Source of the DNA: a virus
DNA length: 64,000 nucleotides
Reading direction: 5' to 3' (one strand)
IMG/VR virus record: IMGVR_UViG_3300042922_000542
Span: 182,148-246,147 of that record
Shown here: positions 10,545 through 39,712 of the stretch, in pieces
How positions within the stretch are numbered: position 1 is the stretch's first letter
Layout: each line of letters opens with the position of its first letter
The notes under the pieces: generated by a model
The model's input: only the letters and a program-made list of their open reading frames with translations
Told to the model about the DNA's origin: nothing
Database searches by the model: none
Program-made: the position numbers and the translations under genes

Positions 10545-12698
10545 TTAAAACATATTAATTTGATCAAAAAATGATGGTGGTATATCAACTGAGTCATCAA
10601 ATATATTATTGCTGTTAGGACGATTGGAATAGATAGGATCATAGATATTACTATTAACGGCTACTGCATATTTTTGCATTTGTTCCATTTCAATTGTGGT
10701 ACTTATTACAATCTCCTCAAACGTTACATTATCTGATGAGAAAAATTCTATATTACCACCAGATTTAATTTCTACATTCTGTTCATAATTCGGTTCTAAT
10801 GCCCCATAAATAGGATGGTCGGTTTTTCTAATACCAAAAAATTCTAAATTATCTCCGGTATAATAAACATAAATTGCATGATTATATGACATTACACAGT
10901 CATCATGTTCACCCTTAGCTGCTTGGATTTTACCAGTTGATGTTCTAATCAGTTTACACATATCATCGACTAAATATTCAGTATTAAGAATTTGCTTGCA
11001 TTCCTTAATGTGATTAAATAATAATTCAAACATAGCATCACGAACTTTTTTCGATGTATATGTACCATATTTCTTATATTGTTGCGATAATTTCTTTAAT
11101 TCATAATCACTTTCAGATTCATTTGCCATATCTTCCAATTGCTGTAATGAATCGGACCAGTATAAATTATCTTTAATTGAGCTTTCACAGATGGCGTGGA
11201 TTAAATATATACCCATGCTATTACGCTCAGGTATCAATACACCCTTTGGAATATAGTTAATTATAAGATCTATTAATACACGTAATAACTCAGTCCCACT
11301 TATATATGGTGATTTAAATTCTGCAGCAATTTGTAAGTTGTAAGGATTAACTATAGTTATAGATGTATTATCACCGCCACCACCGCCAGAAGGATCCACA
11401 CCTATTAAATACGGAATATTGGAATCCAATAATAATTTTGTATTTTGTTCATGCGGATATGTCAACATACGCCATTTCTTATTAAGTATGATGTCTGTAG
11501 TTGATTTCTGCATATGTGATATTAGGAATTCAAGATCTTCAGGTTCTATTGGTGAATCTGTAGATCCTCTTAGACGTTGCATTAATATTTCACGTCTAAT
11601 TGCCATTTTATCACCAGACAAATTATATTGCTCTTCAACCCACTTATGTGTTTTTCTAAGTTGCCAATACTGATATTCGATATAGAATATTCTTGTAACT
11701 TCTCTACTCTTATCGGTTGTGTCATCTTGATGATATTCATCGCGATATGCACTGATGTAATCTTCAATTTCTGCATCACTCATATCATATATTCGCTCAG
11801 TCCATGGAACCATTGATTTTATAATTGGTGCAGCAGTAGCACCTTCTCTTGTATCAAGATTACCAGGCGTTGTTGTGAAGATTCTACCATAAGGACGTCC
11901 TGCAATGGCAGCATTCTCAGATGCGGTTTTAAATGCAGGAGCAGAGTTGGATAATAATACATCAAAATATGGAGTATGTTCGATCTCGTCAAAATATACT
12001 ATGGACATAGAGTCACCACGGGCCATACCTTGGGCATGGGACATACTCGTGGGTTTTGGATGCATAACAATACGATTACCTCTGACTTTATTTTCAAGTA
12101 TTTCTGTTGCTTGTCGTGTCTTTTTAGTTTTACCGTCATTATCAATGAATCGTTTAAACTGTAACCATTCAGGAAGAACATCAATATCATTCTTTAAGTC
12201 TCTTAGGTTCTTCTTAGTGTTATCTGTGTCCTTACCAAAGAAATTGATATTAGCATTTTGAGATGCCAACTGAAAACACCATGATACGATAGTCGAAATA
12301 CTACCAGTTGTTTTATATGTCTGACGAGGTTCGCATAAACATGAGTCAAATCTTTTCGCAAAGCACCATATCAATGCGGCTAATCCACGATGTAAACAAA
12401 AGTCGACAGTACCCTTATCTGATTGAATCCTAGCAACGGTTCTTGCATAAAACCAAATATTTGATTGCAATTCACGCATTAGAATTTCTATTTCATGTCG
12501 TGTTATATTCTTTTTAAAAGGATCTATATCGCATACACCGGAATTAGGATATTTCACTTCCAACATAAAATAATAATTTTTTATACCGAGTGCTTTTAAT
12601 TCCATGGCGGTTTGCATAAAACTTTCATTTTTTGGTGAAAAGTCATAATATTTATATTCGCCTGTATGCGGATCCATAATTCTTTTGATATCAGCCAT
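10545..12698 (-). CDS. Terminase large subunit (TerL), ATPase plus nuclease
   Basis: 717 aa, the DNA-packaging motor. ATPase domain: Walker A-like PRQTYKTT (residues 124-131, catalytic lysine K129) preceded by the adenine-side region; Walker B IVYFDEIEH with D237 and catalytic E238; motif III-like GRIFTTTPGN. An RNase H-fold nuclease domain follows, with acidic clusters YLIGVDPSGGGGGDN (start about 430), VLIPERNSMG and KGEHDDCVMSYNHA, supplying the metal-binding aspartates. The nuclease cuts concatemeric DNA and the ATPase translocates it through the portal (46232-48505). A truncated paralog with destroyed Walker motifs is encoded at 38152-39126. RBS AAAGGAGTAATATT. Confidence 0.93.
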   Translation of the reverse strand: MADIKRIMDPHTGEYKYYDFSPKNESFMQTAMELKALGIKNYYFMLEVKYPNSGVCDIDPFKKNITRHEIEILMRELQSNIWFYARTVARIQSDKGTVDFCLHRGLAALIWCFAKRFDSCLCEPRQTYKTTGSISTIVSWCFQLASQNANINFFGKDTDNTKKNLRDLKNDIDVLPEWLQFKRFIDNDGKTKKTRQATEILENKVRGNRIVMHPKPTSMSHAQGMARGDSMSIVYFDEIEHTPYFDVLLSNSAPAFKTASENAAIAGRPYGRIFTTTPGNLDTREGATAAPIIKSMVPWTERIYDMSDAEIEDYISAYRDEYHQDDTTDKSREVTRIFYIEYQYWQLRKTHKWVEEQYNLSGDKMAIRREILMQRLRGSTDSPIEPEDLEFLISHMQKSTTDIILNKKWRMLTYPHEQNTKLLLDSNIPYLIGVDPSGGGGGDNTSITIVNPYNLQIAAEFKSPYISGTELLRVLIDLIINYIPKGVLIPERNSMGIYLIHAICESSIKDNLYWSDSLQQLEDMANESESDYELKKLSQQYKKYGTYTSKKVRDAMFELLFNHIKECKQILNTEYLVDDMCKLIRTSTGKIQAAKGEHDDCVMSYNHAIYVYYTGDNLEFFGIRKTDHPIYGALEPNYEQNVEIKSGGNIEFFSSDNVTFEEIVISTTIEMEQMQKYAVAVNSNIYDPIYSNRPNSNNIFDDSVDIPPSFFDQINMF

Positions 12699-13993: not shown

Positions 13994-16900
13994 CTATCCT
14001 TCATAATTTTTTGGATACTTTATATCAATTATAGGACGATCTGCACTTGGTACAGGCATATCCATTATATTTTTTATTGCAGCTAATAATTGCGTTCTCA
14101 TATCTACCAGATATTGATAAGTATGAGGTACGATATAATTTTTAGTACCCACATCCAAAAGCTCAATATACCATTCAACAATTTCAAGTTTACCATATGC
14201 GTATGATACTATCATCATTTTATCATTAGCAGTTCTAATTGATTCACCCTCAATTGTTATATATGCTACAAGATCTGCTGGTATTTTCTTCAATCTTTTA
14301 ATTTTAACCTTTTCATTGAATACCATTTTATCTTCTATATATTTTTCACATTGTGCATATTCAAATCTGGATGTATATAATTCAATCTCTGTATCGAAAC
14401 CAGAATTATAGAATCTTTCTACGATTTGTGGTAGACTTTGCAATGATCGCACAGTCTCGGTATATGTGACATTAGTAGTTAATTGTGATATCAATGATTT
14501 TAAATCATGTATTATTTTTTTCTTAGACTTTTCAGGAGTTGGGTATGTCTCAACTATATCTGAAATGAATTTATTTACTTTATCAATTAATTCCATATCA
14601 GGGTTGAAAACCTTATTTACTTCTCCATCAACATCTCTGAATACGAGCAGCATACTTAATGTATATATAACGACACCATCGAGAGGTCCAATCAATAACT
14701 TCTTAGTAGGTGTATCGAATTTCATTAAATTCATTGCTATTTTTTCAGCACCTTTGTCTATATTACTATTATAGTATTTAATTGCATTCTCAAAACAATT
14801 TAAGAGATCGTCAGGTGTTTTAAATGTCTTAAATAATTTTTTAGATACTTTAATATTAATTGATCCGCTTCTTCGTAAAAACGTGGTAAATGTTTCATGG
14901 CCATTTATAAACCTATCAACAAATATATTATCGCCATTTTTCTTGATAGATAAATTAGGAGGTATAAATTCAAAATCAATATCACTTTTATCATTAGTAA
15001 ATCCAATTGATATAGCATCAAATTCACTTGCCCATTCTCGCAATGGACCTTCTGATATTAAATTAGCAATTGTATTTAATGTACTTTCACTAACCTTACC
15101 ACTTTTATCTATGATTGATTTGGCCAATGTTAATATGGTTTGCTTTGCGGTAGCAATCTTGGCTTTGTCAATTTTATTTAAGCCCATGGATTCCCCTCTA
15201 CCACCAGGAGTTTTAGTTAATCTATTATCCGGCTGTAAATACCAGCCACAGTTAACACATCTCGCTTGACCCCCACCATATGAGAATGAATGTTCACAAT
15301 TCTCTGGTGCGACAGAAAATGTAGATTCTATATATGGGGTTCCGTTATTAGCATAATCCCAAAGTTTCTTAGCCGCATCATCATCAAATCTGAGTTCAAA
15401 CATATCGATTCCATCATCGGGATCCCCACCAAGAACAATTGTTATACCAGGATATTTCTGTTGGAAATCAACCCTACCATCTTCAAATTCTCTATCAATT
15501 TCTTGAAGTAATAAATAAAGCTCATAATGTAAAAATCTATACGATTTTTGTTCATCCAGGGTCATCTTCTTATATAATTCATATTCCGCATCTTCAAAAT
15601 TAAAAGTTTGCTGTTGATCAGTTACGTATATAACTGCACTATATGAATTATTCTGTGGACTATGTGTAACACTACCACACCCTGTAATCGATGAATATAT
15701 ATATTTCTCGATCTCATCAATTATATGTTTTTCGGATAGTCTACTATATTCAGATTTTTTCACTTTATCCTTGATCTTGGTTAGAATTTGCTTATTTAGA
15801 TCATCAACAAGTGTTGAAATAATTGGTGGTAAGTTATCCTTTGATATGTTAATAGTCTTAGGTTTATTGCTATTATCATTATTGGTAGTAAATATATTAA
15901 ATTTATTTTTAAAACTAGTATTATCAGATTTATGTTTAAGAAATTGCGCGCGCTTGATGTTATAGTTATTGATATCAACTGCTTCTGTTTTAATATGATT
16001 ATCCACTACATTACCACGATTTTTAAACTTATTCCATAATTGTTCAGCAATTTTATCTGATGGATAAACATCGTATCCTTCTAAATTATGCCCATCATTA
16101 AATTCATATTCCAATCTTAAATCATATTTTTTGGATATAATGGGTTTAACTTTATTAAATACTTCGGTGATTAATGTGTGGAATAAATGTGCTTGCGTAT
16201 CATTTCGATCATTTACAACATGTCCTGTAATCTGTATCATACATTGATACTTCCCACTTTCAGTTGGCCAAATTTGGACAGCTTTATTATCATCAATCTC
16301 TGATAATGGCGTACAAAATTTATCAATATATTCTTTACATTTTTCAGATGTTAAAACTGATTTATATTTATCAGTCCTAATCATATGCTGTAAAGTTTCA
16401 ACTATGAATTTATTAGTTTGATTTAATTTTATTTGAAAGACCATTGGTAAATCTTTACGTTGATTATACAACCTAGGTTCAGTTGCTTCATTATAGATAT
16501 TATTAATATTCATATCTATTATATTCTCCTTCCATTCATAAGATTCTTTTTGGATATCAGATGCACTTTCATTTGTTTGTTTCAATTTATTTATAATGTG
16601 GTCAAACTCAGATCGTCCCATTGTAATATATTCATAAATTTTAATAGTCTCATTTATTAAAAGAACTCTTTCTTCCATCGTAAGGGTTTTATTTAATCTT
16701 TTTTTCATAATAATAATTAATATTTCTTTAGGAATTTTATAAAATGCCAATTTACCATATGGCTCATCTTTCCAGTTTTTAGATGGCATAATATGATGCA
16801 TAATATTAATCATATCCATAAAGTCAATATGCATAATATCATTAGCGAGCTTTTCTGGTTTCAAATGATAGTATGCTGCACTTATATTGGATAATTCCTG

Positions 16901-17512
16901 ATCTCTCGCGTTAGCATTATTATCAATAACTGTATTTAATATTGTACCAAACATTCCATTCTTTATTTCATATTCAACACGATCATATATTGATATATCC
17001 TTAATTGTTAATATATGACCAATTTCATGAGATATTATTATTTTTAAATCATCTATTGTTTTATAATTAAACGCAATCATTTTTTTTATATTTATAATCA
17101 TGGCCGGAATACGATTAGTGTCATCTTTAAATTTATCAATATATTGCGATATATTTGTGGATTGACTTATATTATATTTATTCAAATCTTCAATTTTGAT
17201 AGATTTAATCATTATTTTTGCATCAGGATGCATTAGATTCGAGTCATCCTCAATAAATATAACTAGAATATTATATTTTCTAATAAATTCTTCGAGTATC
17301 ATTTTAATATCAGTTTCCGACAAATCAGGTGTCGTATATTTCGTTTTTTCATCATGTATTGTCTTATTATTTAATTTATTATTTAATTTATTATTTATTT
17401 CAATAATTTTCAATGGAGATTTAATCAAATTTTGCATTAATATATCCATATTTTGTAAATTAATTAATAAATCAATATCATTTTTATTTATATGATTTAA
17501 TGCGTTATTCAT
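13994..17512 (-). CDS. Giant zinc-metalloprotease-like protein (1172 aa) with a zinc ribbon
   Basis: Residues 162-166 are HEIGH, a zincin HExxH motif, following a hydrophobic strand-helix (KTIDDLKIIIS) and followed by a region with further possible ligands (VIDNNANARDQELSN, then NDIMHIDFMD). This fits a metallopeptidase domain in the N-terminal 260 residues. Near residue 750, CEHSF...CVNCGWYL gives a four-ligand zinc-ribbon-like cluster. The C-terminal 400 residues are mixed alpha/beta with no recognised motif. It follows the capsid gene's unit on the minus strand, so it may be packaged or act in assembly. Protease activity is inferred from the motif alone; the substrate is unknown. No signal peptide. 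Confidence 0.65.
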   Translation of the reverse strand: MNNALNHINKNDIDLLINLQNMDILMQNLIKSPLKIIEINNKLNNKLNNKTIHDEKTKYTTPDLSETDIKMILEEFIRKYNILVIFIEDDSNLMHPDAKIMIKSIKIEDLNKYNISQSTNISQYIDKFKDDTNRIPAMIINIKKMIAFNYKTIDDLKIIISHEIGHILTIKDISIYDRVEYEIKNGMFGTILNTVIDNNANARDQELSNISAAYYHLKPEKLANDIMHIDFMDMINIMHHIMPSKNWKDEPYGKLAFYKIPKEILIIIMKKRLNKTLTMEERVLLINETIKIYEYITMGRSEFDHIINKLKQTNESASDIQKESYEWKENIIDMNINNIYNEATEPRLYNQRKDLPMVFQIKLNQTNKFIVETLQHMIRTDKYKSVLTSEKCKEYIDKFCTPLSEIDDNKAVQIWPTESGKYQCMIQITGHVVNDRNDTQAHLFHTLITEVFNKVKPIISKKYDLRLEYEFNDGHNLEGYDVYPSDKIAEQLWNKFKNRGNVVDNHIKTEAVDINNYNIKRAQFLKHKSDNTSFKNKFNIFTTNNDNSNKPKTINISKDNLPPIISTLVDDLNKQILTKIKDKVKKSEYSRLSEKHIIDEIEKYIYSSITGCGSVTHSPQNNSYSAVIYVTDQQQTFNFEDAEYELYKKMTLDEQKSYRFLHYELYLLLQEIDREFEDGRVDFQQKYPGITIVLGGDPDDGIDMFELRFDDDAAKKLWDYANNGTPYIESTFSVAPENCEHSFSYGGGQARCVNCGWYLQPDNRLTKTPGGRGESMGLNKIDKAKIATAKQTILTLAKSIIDKSGKVSESTLNTIANLISEGPLREWASEFDAISIGFTNDKSDIDFEFIPPNLSIKKNGDNIFVDRFINGHETFTTFLRRSGSINIKVSKKLFKTFKTPDDLLNCFENAIKYYNSNIDKGAEKIAMNLMKFDTPTKKLLIGPLDGVVIYTLSMLLVFRDVDGEVNKVFNPDMELIDKVNKFISDIVETYPTPEKSKKKIIHDLKSLISQLTTNVTYTETVRSLQSLPQIVERFYNSGFDTEIELYTSRFEYAQCEKYIEDKMVFNEKVKIKRLKKIPADLVAYITIEGESIRTANDKMMIVSYAYGKLEIVEWYIELLDVGTKNYIVPHTYQYLVDMRTQLLAAIKNIMDMPVPSADRPIIDIKYPKNYEG

Positions 17513-34087: not shown

Positions 34088-35809
34088 ATGTTGAAATATC
34101 TTAATCAATTACCAAATGATTACGTTGATCAATTAAATACCGGATTAATGAATAAGGAGTATGATAGGGATTTAATTGAATTACTAGTCGATAGCTTTAA
34201 GGGTTTGGAAATTCTGCCAAATATTAAAATTCTCGGATATACGTGGGAGCCTGAAGAAGACAAGTATGATGTAAATGATCACGTTGTCAGAAGAAATGTA
34301 AATAAAAATAAGGCAATTAAAAATATTACTGAAACACGATGTGGTGTTTTATATATTGATATTGAAATATCAGGCCCGGATAAAACAGGTAAGCATAAAG
34401 TCCACTACATCAAAAAGCCAATAATAGTACCGATCCAAGATGAACGCGGTTATTATCGTATTAAAGGAAAAGATTATTTTCTAATATATCAGATGGTCGA
34501 TAAAATGATGTACCCCTCTATAGGAGCTGTAACAATTAAATCATTAATGCCAATTTGTGTTAAAACTGTTAAAGAAGATATATCGGATGTTAATGAAAAT
34601 ACATATACTATTCCGATATACAATATTCAAATATTTAAATCTGCAATAAATATTCTTTTATTATACAGCAATTTGACAATAACTAAATCATTGAATTTTA
34701 TGGAAGTTAATAGATTTATCAAAATATTACAAAAAGATGATTATACACCTAACCATGAAACATCATTATATTTTGAATGCGGTAAGAAATCTGATATCGT
34801 TGTTTCGGTATTAAAAGATCCATTTGAAAAATTTATTTATGTAAAATCAATTGTAGGTTGCCTAATAAAACTATTTGAAGAAACTAAAATCCCATTTAAG
34901 GATATTGATAATTGGGAAGAATGGATGATTATAGTTGGTGGCAAGAATACAATTCGCAGGGGAATGTATCAGCATGTATTTTTCAATAGATTATTGGATG
35001 ATGTTACTCGTAAAGAATTAAAGATAAATGATTACGATAAACAAAATATCTACTATTTATTACGATGGATCGTACAAAATTATCATGTATTATGGGAAAA
35101 AGATAATTTATCGATGGTCAACAAAAGATTGCGCTGTAATGAATATGTTGGAAGTTTAATGACTGCAGAAATAAGTAAGCGAATTAATCGTCTTGTATCA
35201 TTAGGTGATAAAGCCACTATTAAGGAATATTTAGCAGCATTTAAATTTCCAGAGGATATTTTTGTTAGCAAGATGTATGGAAGCGGCATCCTTCGATATA
35301 ATGAAACGAATAATGATATGGATTTCCATAGTAAATGGAAGATAACAAAGAAGGGGCCTAACTCACTTGGAAACTCAAATCAAAAGAGAATTCCTGTAAG
35401 ACAAAGATTATTACATCCATCGATGTTGGGGTATATTGATATTGCAAGTACTAGTTCATCAGAACCAGGTCAAGGTGGGGATTTATCACCATGGAATGAT
35501 ATGAATAGTTTATATTTTGATAGTTCATTAGCCGAAAATGAAATGCATTATAAAATAAAACAATATCTAGATGAAAATCCACTAGATGATGAATGGGAAG
35601 AGTTGATAATTAAATGTGATAACATGGAACAATACAATTCAATTCTAGACTCATTATTGCATTATTCTGATGGAAAAATTCGAATATATGCAACCACTAA
35701 TAATGATACCGAAATCATAGTTATGGAAGACCCAAGAAACAATTACAGGAAATTTGATGAAAAGAATCTTACGGGTAATTCCAATACGGATAATAATGAT
35801 ACCAAATAA
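34088..35809 (+). CDS. DNA-directed RNA polymerase beta subunit, N-terminal half (split beta)
   Basis: 573 aa. Motifs in order match the first half of RpoB. [19 protein letters not shown] (about 120-138) corresponds to the GTFIINGTERVIVSQL strand-helix. [26 protein letters not shown] corresponds to [44 protein letters not shown] then [14 protein letters not shown] corresponds to [26 protein letters not shown], the rifampicin-pocket/fork region; the rifampicin-sensitivity residues are changed here. The protein ends about 100 residues after this point, just before where the partner at 2931-5249 resumes. Ribosome site TATGGAGGCAACACA. Splitting beta at this place is a hallmark of giant-phage multisubunit RNA polymerases. 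Confidence 0.92.
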   Translation: [573 protein letters not shown]

Positions 35810-35929: not shown

Positions 35930-36604
35930 ATGAAACAACAAGTAAAATATCAGCTAGTCTCAGTTCCAGGAAAACTAAGATTTGAATTAAAATTATTTAT
36001 GGATGATTCAAATGATAAAACTGAATTTATTTCTAATATAAACGGTGATAAATATACGACCGTATCATTATATCCGATAATGTCATTAACAATAATCCGC
36101 CTGGGAGAATTAAATGAAAGTGGTATTCGAACAAAGGTACCTTATAATCCAAATGACACACTATCGATGGGTCGATATAATTATCCAATATTTGTAAATG
36201 AATTAAATACAATACATAAGGATTTCAAAACTCCTGAGTTATATTCATATACAAATAAACGTTTAGAAATGAATGAAGAACTGGCATCAAAATTTAGAAG
36301 AGTGTTCATGGTTGGTAACACAGTCGTTGAAATGGTTCCTGTAGTAATAATTCAACCTGATGAAAATAAGGTTGAGGGCGTAAAAATTAAATTTAATAAT
36401 GAACAATCATCCGTGTTATTAACATTAAATGACATGGAATCATTATTATTTACAATGGAAAGAGTCAATATAGATTCAATAACAATGGATTTATATAATT
36501 CATATATTAAAACTGGGGTAAAAAATCACACTGTTGATGCATCATCATTTGCAGGTGCTAAAAAGGTTGACATCGATATTATCCCTAAAGATAATACAAT
36601 ATAA
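35930..36604 (+). CDS. Unknown protein downstream of RNAP beta N-half (224 aa)
   Basis: Not recognised. Mostly beta in character: KYQLVSVPGKLRFELKLFMDD, SLTIIRLGELNESGIRT, KVEGVKIKFNNEQSSVLLTL. It reads like a single compact beta domain without cysteines or nucleotide-binding loop. Such basic-acidic beta proteins beside replication/transcription genes are sometimes single-stranded DNA-binding proteins; that is only a suggestion. Ribosome site TAGGAGGCATACATTTA. The 120-base gap upstream is AT-rich and may contain a promoter. Confidence 0.6.
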   Translation: MKQQVKYQLVSVPGKLRFELKLFMDDSNDKTEFISNINGDKYTTVSLYPIMSLTIIRLGELNESGIRTKVPYNPNDTLSMGRYNYPIFVNELNTIHKDFKTPELYSYTNKRLEMNEELASKFRRVFMVGNTVVEMVPVVIIQPDENKVEGVKIKFNNEQSSVLLTLNDMESLLFTMERVNIDSITMDLYNSYIKTGVKNHTVDASSFAGAKKVDIDIIPKDNTI

Positions 36605-36636
36605 AAATATAAATAATTAAATGGAGGAAATATAAT

Positions 36637-37248
36637 ATGATACAACCAATATCGACCGCAAAATCAATGATGGTTATTGCAATTGCTGAAGAACTTACTA
36701 ATATCCGTAAGAGACTTGACGATATATATTGCGCTGATACCAAAGAATTTGATGTAGCAGGAAATTATAGTATAGAAGATATAACTAACATAATTATTAC
36801 ATTGAATTCATTATCTAATATATTTGATATAACAAATAATGTTGTATTCCAATCAAAAGCATTATATGAAACAAAAATTAATCATCCGGTAATATCTGCC
36901 TTATGGGAATTAATAAATAATACATTGATATTGATTGATGATAGCAAAATAAATTTAAATGTATTAGATCATCGATATAGCACGGATGTATTTAAAGTGT
37001 TTGGGAAAGTAATTGCAAATGTTCAACAAAGAGCAGATATCGTATATTATGCAGATAAGCCTCCAAGAGAATGTGAGAATGAAAGATCTGGCGCAATATT
37101 AAATGAATTAATACCCATAATAAGAATATGTGAAAAAATAAATATTAAACAGGCATCATATAATGAAGCATATAAAATATATGATTTCAGTAATAGTGGA
37201 AAAAAAGGTTATGCGCTAGTAGATGGTAAAATAATAAAAGTGGAGTGA
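36637..37248 (+). CDS. Unknown helical protein (203 aa)
   Basis: Not recognised. Helical with many isoleucine/asparagine residues (EDITNIIITLNSLSNIFDI, LWELINNTLILID), ending in a small beta segment (GKKGYALVDGKIIKVE). Ribosome site TGGAGGAAATATA. It uses TGA as stop, showing that TGA is a normal stop codon in this genome. It overlaps nothing and is spaced seven bases from the next gene, so it is in one operon with its neighbours. Confidence 0.6.
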   Translation: MIQPISTAKSMMVIAIAEELTNIRKRLDDIYCADTKEFDVAGNYSIEDITNIIITLNSLSNIFDITNNVVFQSKALYETKINHPVISALWELINNTLILIDDSKINLNVLDHRYSTDVFKVFGKVIANVQQRADIVYYADKPPRECENERSGAILNELIPIIRICEKINIKQASYNEAYKIYDFSNSGKKGYALVDGKIIKVE

Positions 37249-37255
37249 AAAATAA

Positions 37256-38131
37256 ATGATTGGAATAATCCCAGCAGCTTCAAAAATATTCGAAGTATAT
37301 GGAACATTCGATCATAAAAATTTAGTTGATAATAAATTGTATGTAGGTCCGGATGGTCGGATCTACATATATTCTTTGACTGAAACAAGATCGAATCCAA
37401 ATACAGGTTTCTTCCCAATATGGGATGGAAAAAATATATACATTTCGAAGTTTTCAAATGAAAAATATCTCAATAAAGATGTAATCAAAACAGATATAGC
37501 CAGTATGTCCTCAAAAATAGATAATGAAATCGCAAATAAGATTTTATACATGCAGCGACGTGCAGAAAACGATGCGATACTAAAGCCAATAATACAGGAA
37601 AATGATAATATGTTTACTCAGTGTATTAAAGGAATATTTGATTTAAAAACATTAACTTTGATAGATTTAGTTGATCTGTCTGGATTAAATGAAAAACTAA
37701 TTGCAAGTTATTATTCAGCATTAACTAAAATAGCATTTATGCGTTTAGAGCGATGGTATATATGGATAAATGTAATATTTCATCTTGATTACGATGTAGT
37801 GGTCATGCAAGATGATAGAGTATTATTACGATATACGCATTCAACTAATAATTTCGATGTCGACAATTCGAAATATAATGATATCATTAAATCGAAAGAT
37901 GACTTCCTAAAAAAGATTGTAAAGATTATTATGAAAATGGAAAATATTAATAAAGATGATTTGAGATCAGATCAGGTTGATGATTATACGATCAATAATA
38001 TGATGATAATATTGAATACGGATAAAATGTTATCGGCACAACTATTCAGTAGATTTACATCCATGTCAAATTTATCTTATACGGTAACATTGTATGAGAA
38101 TGGAAATGACATATTTCAGTATACCGAATAA
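37256..38131 (+). CDS. Unknown protein (291 aa)
   Basis: Not recognised. The N-terminal region has short strands separated by turns (FEVYGTFDHKN, YVGPDGRIYIYSL, FFPIWDGKNIYI); the middle is helical (RLERWYIWINVIFHL); the end returns to strands (YTVTLYENGNDIFQY). A GTGG-AGTGAAA ribosome site overlaps the end of the preceding gene. It directly precedes the pseudo-terminase, which gives no functional clue on its own. Confidence 0.6.
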   Translation: MIGIIPAASKIFEVYGTFDHKNLVDNKLYVGPDGRIYIYSLTETRSNPNTGFFPIWDGKNIYISKFSNEKYLNKDVIKTDIASMSSKIDNEIANKILYMQRRAENDAILKPIIQENDNMFTQCIKGIFDLKTLTLIDLVDLSGLNEKLIASYYSALTKIAFMRLERWYIWINVIFHLDYDVVVMQDDRVLLRYTHSTNNFDVDNSKYNDIIKSKDDFLKKIVKIIMKMENINKDDLRSDQVDDYTINNMMIILNTDKMLSAQLFSRFTSMSNLSYTVTLYENGNDIFQYTE

Positions 38132-38151
38132 AAAATAAGGAGTAATTAAAT

Positions 38152-39126
38152 ATGAAAAAAATTTATCAAATGAATACAGAAAATAAAAGCTTCTTAGATT
38201 TTTCATTATTGTTAAAAGAAGAAGGTATAAAAAATCATTTATTCATGTTGGAATTAAAAAATGAAAATCTATTATACATTGATCCATGGGATGGTTATAA
38301 AACAGAACAACAACAGCAACAAATCATTGATGAAGCATGCAATAATTTCTGGTATTTCGCTAGGGAAGTTATTAAATGGCGAGATTTAGATGGTTCATTG
38401 TATCATACTAAATTAGATAGAGGCAATTGCGCAATGTATTTTAATAGCTTAAACAATATTAGTACATGGAGATCGAACATTAGACAAACTTATTCTAGTA
38501 TAAGCGTAATTACATTTCTAATATGGCGTTGGTTATCAGGGTATTATACTGATATGGATGCTATAACAAGAGATATATCAGCATCAAAGCAGTTGAAGAC
38601 GGTGGTATCAAATATCATTAATAGTCTACCAGAATATTTTAATATTAAAAAACATGAATCATATAAATATTTTGGCATCATTGATAATGATAAAAATAAG
38701 ATACACTTTAATAGTTCTCGAGTTATAATTAAAAATGGATCAAATATTGATTCGGATATTGCATTTTTTGACGGTGGTGAATTTATACCAAATTTAAAAT
38801 CACTAATTGAAAATAGGAATCTTAATACACGTGAAATTAATAATACCAAATTCACTATAGTTAACTCTGTAATTGGCGATGACAAAGCACCATCTAGTCT
38901 ATTTGCGGAGGGATATATAGATTCAATGTTAAAATGGAAGGACACATTTTATGATACGGATATATCTATAAATAATGTGATAATCAATAATTATCACAAT
39001 AGGTCTGTATACATATGCCACCCTTACAATCTCCTTGGATTTAGTGAAGAATGGTTTAAAAATTATAGTAACATGATTGACGATGAAAATATAATTAGGC
39101 GTGAATTGTTGGCACAAAGAAGATAA
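38152..39126 (+). CDS. Truncated terminase-like protein with inactivated ATPase motifs (pseudo-TerL)
   Basis: 324 aa. It aligns with the N-terminal ATPase domain of the window's own TerL (10545-12698) along its whole length: NKSFLDFSLLLKEEGIKNHLFMLELK matches NESFMQTAMELKALGIKNYYFMLEVK; NFWYFAREVIKWRDLDG matches IWFYARTVARIQSDKG; and its last residues RRELLAQRR end where TerL has RREILMQRLRGS, exactly before the nuclease domain. But the Walker A lysine is replaced (RQTYSS, S115, against RQTYKT) and Walker B reads FFDGGE (D207-G208) instead of FDEIE, so ATP hydrolysis is not expected. It has a good ribosome site (AAGGAGTAATTAAAT). It is an intact gene, not decay, so a regulatory or structural role is likely. 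Confidence 0.8.
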   Translation: MKKIYQMNTENKSFLDFSLLLKEEGIKNHLFMLELKNENLLYIDPWDGYKTEQQQQQIIDEACNNFWYFAREVIKWRDLDGSLYHTKLDRGNCAMYFNSLNNISTWRSNIRQTYSSISVITFLIWRWLSGYYTDMDAITRDISASKQLKTVVSNIINSLPEYFNIKKHESYKYFGIIDNDKNKIHFNSSRVIIKNGSNIDSDIAFFDGGEFIPNLKSLIENRNLNTREINNTKFTIVNSVIGDDKAPSSLFAEGYIDSMLKWKDTFYDTDISINNVIINNYHNRSVYICHPYNLLGFSEEWFKNYSNMIDDENIIRRELLAQRR

Positions 39127-39165: not shown

Positions 39166-39672
39166 ATGAAATATTTAGATAAAAACGGTAATAGATATGA
39201 TAGTTTATTATCAGCTTATATTGCAGATATTAAAAATATATTTGCTGAGAAAAAATCTAAAACAGAATCAAAGATTAATATATCCAGAAATTACAATACT
39301 ATGGATAAAATCGAATATTCATGCGATGATAATGAGCAAGACAACATTACTGATGATGCGGCTGAACCAGTTATATCAACAGGCATGCTTGATACATCTT
39401 TAGAAACGATCAACATTAATAATGACTTACATGCAGATACTTATGACAAGTTAGATAAACTTGTGAAAGATCTAAATGTCATGGAAATTAAATCAGTATC
39501 CAATAGTATAAATACTGATATTAAGCCAGCTATAAATCCATCAGGATTTGTTATCAAAGTATTAGATAAGATGAATAATTATATAACTGAGAATAAAGAT
39601 GAAATAGAAACTGATCTTAGAACATCTATCACAGATGTATTTACTAAGGCAACTGATAAGTTTAAAAAATAA
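39166..39672 (+). CDS. Unknown acidic protein (168 aa)
   Basis: Not recognised. Starts MKYLDKNGNRYDSLLSAYIAD, then an acidic low-complexity middle (DDNEQDNITDDAAEP), then a helical end (LRTSITDVFTKATDKFKK). Ribosome site AAAGGGGGACATATTA. Last gene before a bidirectional terminator. Context (after pseudo-TerL) hints at a late-assembly role, unproven. Confidence 0.55.
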   Translation: MKYLDKNGNRYDSLLSAYIADIKNIFAEKKSKTESKINISRNYNTMDKIEYSCDDNEQDNITDDAAEPVISTGMLDTSLETININNDLHADTYDKLDKLVKDLNVMEIKSVSNSINTDIKPAINPSGFVIKVLDKMNNYITENKDEIETDLRTSITDVFTKATDKFKK

Positions 39673-39712
39673 TATGTAGGGGATTCATATCCCCTACATA
39701 TTTATTTATTTT
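39672..39712. terminator. Bidirectional terminator
   Basis: ATATGTAGGGGAT pairs with ATCCCCTACATAT around TCAT; T-rich runs follow on the plus side and A/T-rich on the minus side. It separates converging genes ending at 39672 and 39715. Confidence 0.85.

Follow-up and report, generated by a model that had tools for sequence, protein, structure and literature searches.

Viral packaging motors are usually pictured as rings of a single type of large terminase (TerL) subunit. In bacteriophage T4, motors that contain inactive gp17 subunits do assemble, but both their engagement with DNA and their packaging are poorer (PMC8589836). Like the protein described here, these doping subunits are ATPase-dead and could join a ring and slow the motor; the T4 subunit, however, is a laboratory point mutant of full-length gp17, whereas ours is the product of a natural, separate and truncated gene. 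Also in T4, the portal is presumed to be contacted by a helix-loop-helix next to the gp17 hinge, a peptide of which inhibits packaging (PMC9958956). A dead paralog is likewise kept beside the active enzyme in the case of trypanosomatid deoxyhypusine synthase, where it serves as an allosteric activator (PMC3663545); that is a different enzyme, and complex formation by the protein described here is a prediction. According to the original prediction made from this DNA, no phage pseudo-terminase of such a form was known to have been described. Within open-licence papers, our search likewise returned nothing relevant on inactive, truncated, duplicated or paralogous terminases of this form, and an overview of jumbo phages treats TerL as universal and, in the passages found, mentions no such paralog.

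The window analysed here is a stretch of 64,000 nucleotides within a 246-kb virus record. It encodes a full-length TerL of 717 aa (10545..12698, minus strand) and, at 38152..39126 (plus strand), a 324-aa TerL paralog consisting of the ATPase domain only, with its catalytic residues gone, which we refer to as the pseudo-terminase. Its ORF has an ATG start, a TAA stop and an intact frame, and is preceded by a ribosome binding site, AAGGAG (38137..38142, plus strand), located 9 nt 5' of the ATG. In codon usage it is typical for the phage, ranking 15th among 33 ORFs, and shifted frames score worse. The coordinates, length, start and stop first reported for this gene were all correct, as were the unbroken frame and the ribosome site. 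These features support an intact, expressed-looking gene that is presumably expressed.

BLASTP aligned residues 3-323 of the pseudo-terminase at 26% identity with residues 16-375 of the full-length TerL in the window (81 bits, E=5e-21), the shared end reading RRELLAQR in the former and RREILMQR in the latter; the end-to-end paralogy with the TerL ATPase domain that had been proposed was thereby recovered, with the same RRE(L/I)L.QR end. An independent profile search matched the protein to the PHROG terminase families phrog_32359 (1e-22) and phrog_2 (2e-12), and a PDB sequence search with the single protein gave no match. The structure check suggested at the outset was carried out with AlphaFold2 on an alignment of 39 sequences, and yielded a model (pLDDT 85.8, pTM 0.87) for which Foldseek returned T4 gp17 as the top solved structure (E=4e-7), jumbo-phage TerL models at TM 0.83-0.86 and, among other fold matches, the Avs3-bound TerL (8dgc). 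TerL sequences were included in the alignment, so that the fold is supported by the model and independently proven by the sequence statistics. These comparisons support the retention of the predicted TerL ATPase-domain fold. Furthermore, the model places helices at residues 299-306 and 312-319, which, by analogy with T4 gp17 (PMC9958956), would form a retained C-terminal helix-loop-helix (39046..39108, plus strand) just ahead of the start of the TerL hinge and nuclease.

The pseudo-terminase shares with phage TerLs (phiKZ-like; phrog_2/phrog_32359; T4 gp17 ATPase fold) ATPase-domain homology over its full length, the predicted fold and the domain boundary. Unlike them, it lacks the Walker A K/T, the Walker B glutamate, the RG loop, the C-motif and the nuclease, and it coexists with an intact TerL. 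Its Walker A motif reads RQTYSSIS (residues 111-118; 38482..38505, plus strand) versus RQTYKTTG in the phage's own TerL, RQTYSSI replacing RQTYKTT and S115 taking the place of the lysine. Its Walker B motif reads FFDGGE (residues 205-210; 38764..38781, plus strand) versus YFDEIE, the acidic pair DE having become DG (D207, G208). Both substitutions had been called in the original prediction; we found that the RG loop is deleted as well and that the C-motif (coupling motif) is lost, NSVIGDD (residues 238-244; 38863..38883, plus strand) standing against TTTPGN, with NSV in place of TTT. The protein stops at residue 324, at the ATPase boundary, and no nuclease domain is encoded downstream of 39126. 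The phage's own TerL retains K129/T130, D237/E238, RG, TTTPG and the nuclease carboxylates, with both ATPase and nuclease motifs intact. The losses in its paralog support the view that normal ATP binding and hydrolysis would no longer be possible for it.

The pseudo-terminase is the fifth gene in a same-strand cluster opened by the N-terminal half of the non-virion RNA polymerase (nvRNAP) beta subunit (34088..35809, plus strand), an ortholog of AR9 g105. Between them lie, on the same strand, three genes for proteins of unknown function, of 224 aa (35930..36604; conserved in syntenic relatives), 203 aa (36637..37248; like the pseudo-terminase, missing from three syntenic relatives) and 291 aa (37256..38131; the conserved left neighbour of an accessory slot). 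The earlier description of the gene as lying beside the RNAP beta N-half is therefore accurate for the cluster and not for direct adjacency, as these three genes (35930-38131) intervene. The right neighbour of the slot encodes a 168-aa protein, also of unknown function (39166..39672, plus strand), with a BLAST relative in G009 and a positional and N-terminal match in G001, and a bidirectional terminator-like hairpin closes the cluster (39671..39702). Neither an enrichment of the AR9-type late promoter motif within the window nor, in the cluster, counts of sigma-70-like promoters higher than in shuffled sequence were found.

Three relatives, G001, G003 and G009, share this cluster, including the 224-aa and 291-aa genes and a beta half that is about 58-74% identical by segment. 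No pseudo-terminase or remnant of it was detectable in any of the three, indicating that the gene is dispensable. In these relatives the slot is either empty or taken by other genes: an 87-aa lipoprotein-like ORF in G001, and a 95-aa ORF and an IF-1 gene in G009. The latter (L044:5854-6078, plus strand) encodes a 74-aa homolog of translation initiation factor IF-1 (Pfam eIF-1a, E=1.4e-21). The pseudo-terminase thus occupies an accessory site rather than a conserved rpoB neighbourhood. The nvRNAP beta N-half gene itself is in two to three pieces in G001 and G003 (L004:10001-12101, L045:10983-14724), and intact in the window and G009.

A search for TerL-like proteins of about 320 aa in jumbo phages had been proposed, and we conducted it on about 62 IMG/VR virus records with related TerLs (12 + 50). 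Five further ATPase-only TerL paralogs, all new, were found in addition to a TerL gene in other uncultivated jumbo phages (G010, G020, G060/G061, G049 and G052). Hence, in six viruses a second homolog of the TerL N-terminal domain accompanies a full TerL and ends at the common ATPase/nuclease boundary, the G049 copy carrying about 40 extra residues. Three copies lie directly upstream of TerL. In G010, the copy is 321 aa long, has the motif DDCLRAT, and precedes a TerL that runs off the contig. In G020, it is 327 aa long (motif RFTYNM) and stops 3 nt before TerL, each gene having a separate RBS; its DNA is the same across three contigs. The G060/G061 copy is about 350 aa long (motif LQHGKN with DD). 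The other two are distant from TerL: a 370-aa copy in G049 (motif RQLGNT with DH), about 65 kb away and following an RNAP beta fragment gene, and a 348-aa copy in G052 (motif VETGKT with DE, formally still intact).

Key catalytic residues are absent in four of the five further copies (G010, G020, G049 and G060). The G052 copy (L200:6568-7614, plus strand) has retained GKT, RG and DE and lacks the arginine/glutamine of Walker A; it is possibly a motor that is active without a nuclease, or else a copy in which this process is still at an early stage. The G060 copy contains one in-frame TGA after residue 268, observed in three contigs, from which at least this lineage may be losing its copy. Directly upstream of it lies a gene for a 300-aa protein (L132:3140-4042, plus strand) with a weak but collinear TerL-N profile match; this could be a further, more eroded tandem copy, its AlphaFold2 model reaching a pLDDT of only 58. 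Among the matches listed in 50,697 named phage records, in which records with matches in two places were spot-checked only, no ATPase-only paralog was found; the matches listed are TerLs, in some cases broken up by introns or insertions (Listeria LPJP1, Staphylococcus PB50). Viral and genome contigs were also scanned for exact patterns, using either the complete pseudo-terminase or its N-terminal portion, and no close orthologs of it emerged.

Jumbo-phage TerL genes interrupted by group I introns also yield an N-terminal TerL ORF, of about 210-310 aa, and TerL is interrupted in several relatives, with recognisable group I introns at three loci. These introns lie at different positions (L098:3416-3770, L078:6850-7213, L064:2455-2807), and several other TerL genes are split with no Rfam match. 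It is nevertheless very improbable that the pseudo-terminase is the misread first exon of such a gene, or an assembly error. The window holds an intact TerL and gave no Rfam match, and neither an intron nor a nuclease exon follows 39126. An intron-split TerL has intact catalytic motifs, an intron and a downstream nuclease exon, none of which the pseudo-terminase has, and in the interrupted genes the break falls ahead of the domain boundary, in most cases at about residues 215-290. Furthermore, the G020 and G049 copies are each identical, with zero substitutions, among independently assembled contigs. Short ORFs annotated as terminase large subunit in jumbo phages are not necessarily intron-split fragments.

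We then compared the pattern of sequence loss with that expected from decay. Neutral drift to 35% identity would introduce 19 stops on average (minimum of 9 in 200 simulations), and none was observed. Of the ten nucleotide-site columns that full TerLs conserve, 3 were kept in the window copy, versus 37 of the 56 other conserved columns (Fisher p=0.037). Measured by how many residues of the full-TerL consensus it retains, the window copy scored 34/54 for the N-terminal 100 aa (pre-P-loop), 24/82 for the nucleotide core and 14/28 for the C-terminal part (N-terminal vs core, p=0.0002), the corresponding values for the phage's own TerL being 30/54, 58/82 and 13/28. The core/N ratio was 0.45 for the window copy and 0.35-0.53 across all five dead copies, compared with 0.76 for the G052 copy and 0.96 +/- 0.11 (range 0.71-1.24) for 44 full TerLs. 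Since erosion is confined to the nucleotide core, uniform decay would not give such a pattern. Core-specific erosion and recurrence argue against simple decay, and suggest that the recurrent shortened copies are a working part, a pseudo-motor, rather than mere gene decay.

It could still be that TerL is occasionally duplicated and the duplicate truncated and stripped of its catalytic sites, persisting for a while as a (nearly) non-functional leftover before it vanishes. The sporadic distribution, the lack of the gene in three syntenic relatives, the copy with an in-frame TGA and the possible third, more eroded copy in that same virus would all fit such a history. We regard it as quite improbable, given that the sequence has diverged much further than a frame free of constraint would survive, that flank conservation equals or exceeds that of the phage's own TerL while erosion is limited to the core, and that all copies share one end point. 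Absence from relatives had initially been put forward as a sign of decay; the absence is real in G001, G003 and G009, but the core-specific erosion and the recurrence argue against its reading as simple decay.

The origins of the copies were investigated with trees, in which the six long branches are an obstacle. A first C20 tree with all six copies joined the five dead ones (support 98), but constrained trees pairing the G060 and G052 copies with their own TerLs were about 20 lnL better, and the single clade was set aside as the product of a search stuck below better trees, in which long branches had met. Placed singly, the G060 and G052 copies were sister to their own TerL (96 and 94, respectively), the G049 copy weakly so (67), and the window copy fell inside a 17-row clade holding the TerLs of the window, G010 and G020 (97). 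Removal of the nucleotide-motif columns gave a best LG+F+G4 tree that grouped the copies of G060 (97/89), G052 (98/86) and G049 (92/47) with the TerL of their own phage, and placed those of the window, G020 and G010 together (79/97) within the clade of their TerLs (93/88). Joining all six copies in one origin cost 19.5 lnL (AU p=0.17), so the AU test does not reject a single clade. Several origins, perhaps three to four, are probable from these trees, and the window, G020 and G010 copies possibly share one. The pseudo-terminase has its highest identity (33%) with the TerL of a different phage, and in the tree it is not placed beside the window's TerL, a grouping that is disfavoured yet statistically unrejected. 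On these grounds the protein is unlikely to be a recent copy of the phage's own (genus) TerL: of the prediction that it is a copy of that TerL, the TerL paralogy stands (E=5e-21), and descent from the phage's own gene is not favoured.

The conserved flanks bear on what the protein might do. A TerL ATPase fold co-opted for an unrelated task, for instance nucleic-acid binding or an interaction in host takeover, would agree with the location of the gene far from TerL in the window, G049 and G052, next to an RNAP beta fragment gene in G049, and with the retention of only the fold and flanks. Such a co-option is unlikely in our view, as flanks conserved towards the TerL consensus imply that TerL-type contacts are still in use, and the copies of three relatives lie directly upstream of TerL. 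A role in anti-defence was also considered. Avs1-4 recognise TerL or portal (PMC12931631), and a decoy that binds an Avs-type TerL-sensing receptor without activating it would shield the real TerL; the match of the predicted fold to the Avs3-bound TerL and the accessory slot, in a cluster headed by an ortholog of an early AR9 gene, are compatible with this. However, erosion has affected the ATP site, which is the best-conserved patch available to a broad TerL sensor, and this makes an Avs decoy less likely. Moreover, PADLOC defence models gave no match to the pseudo-terminase at E<=0.1, and three relatives keep the gene beside TerL; we hold this decoy to be decidedly unlikely.

The reading that we favour, at a probability of roughly 0.4, is that the pseudo-terminase is a diverged, catalytically dead TerL ATPase paralog that would act by docking, as a dead competitor or subunit, on the portal or TerL. 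Docking would rely on two retained parts, the N-terminal segment ahead of the P-loop and the C-terminal helix-loop-helix by the hinge. Through them, the protein may occupy the portal clip or be built into the TerL ring as an inactive member, and DNA packaging could thereby be slowed, timed or blocked. The original prediction had likewise suggested that it may join TerL rings or control packaging, or else act as an anti-satellite decoy. Because the window protein ends just after the hinge-type helix-loop-helix, a portal competitor or dead ring member would be the simplest mechanism; the helix-loop-helix is a putative portal contact here by analogy with gp17.

The target of such docking may be the phage's own motor or a rival's. 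Direct adjacency to TerL in three relatives suggests the phage's own motor, while the accessory slot, the sporadic occurrence and the early-type cluster suggest the motor of a co-infecting phage. Some considerations count against docking. Three syntenic relatives do without the gene, and the in-frame TGA suggests that the G060 lineage may be losing its copy. An inactive subunit, if derived from the TerL of the same phage, might be detrimental to that phage's packaging. Furthermore, AR9 g105 is expressed early (PMC5312081); by analogy the window cluster headed by its ortholog would be early-type, so that the pseudo-terminase lies away from TerL and would be made ahead of packaging. More tentatively than for the window protein alone, we propose that a dedicated, dead, ATPase-only TerL has arisen independently several times among jumbo phages and enters the portal-TerL complex to regulate or poison it, in which case some motors would be hetero-oligomeric or targeted. 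If true, a natural dominant-negative or regulatory subunit would exist in at least six jumbo-phage lineages, its ATP site eroded and its docking surfaces kept. With such a subunit one could study the timing of packaging, or its sabotage between rival phages, and learn which surfaces of TerL are enough for docking. That three relatives have the gene upstream of TerL is no more than suggestive of a TerS-like role, and the predicted fold is that of the TerL ATPase.

Other features were observed near the packaging genes. Just upstream of the G010 pseudo-terminase, two adjacent and similar proteins of 276 and 353 aa are apparent tandem duplicates (L017:1612-3510, plus strand), and in the G020 virus a stretch of about 460 bp near the packaging genes is duplicated in tandem at 82% identity (L204:1315-2314). 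In the window, a 1172-aa protein encoded upstream of TerL (13994-17512, minus strand) has a HEIGH zinc-peptidase-like motif, and its C-terminal part is related to HEIGH genes of ~420 aa that adjoin TerL in G010 and G020.
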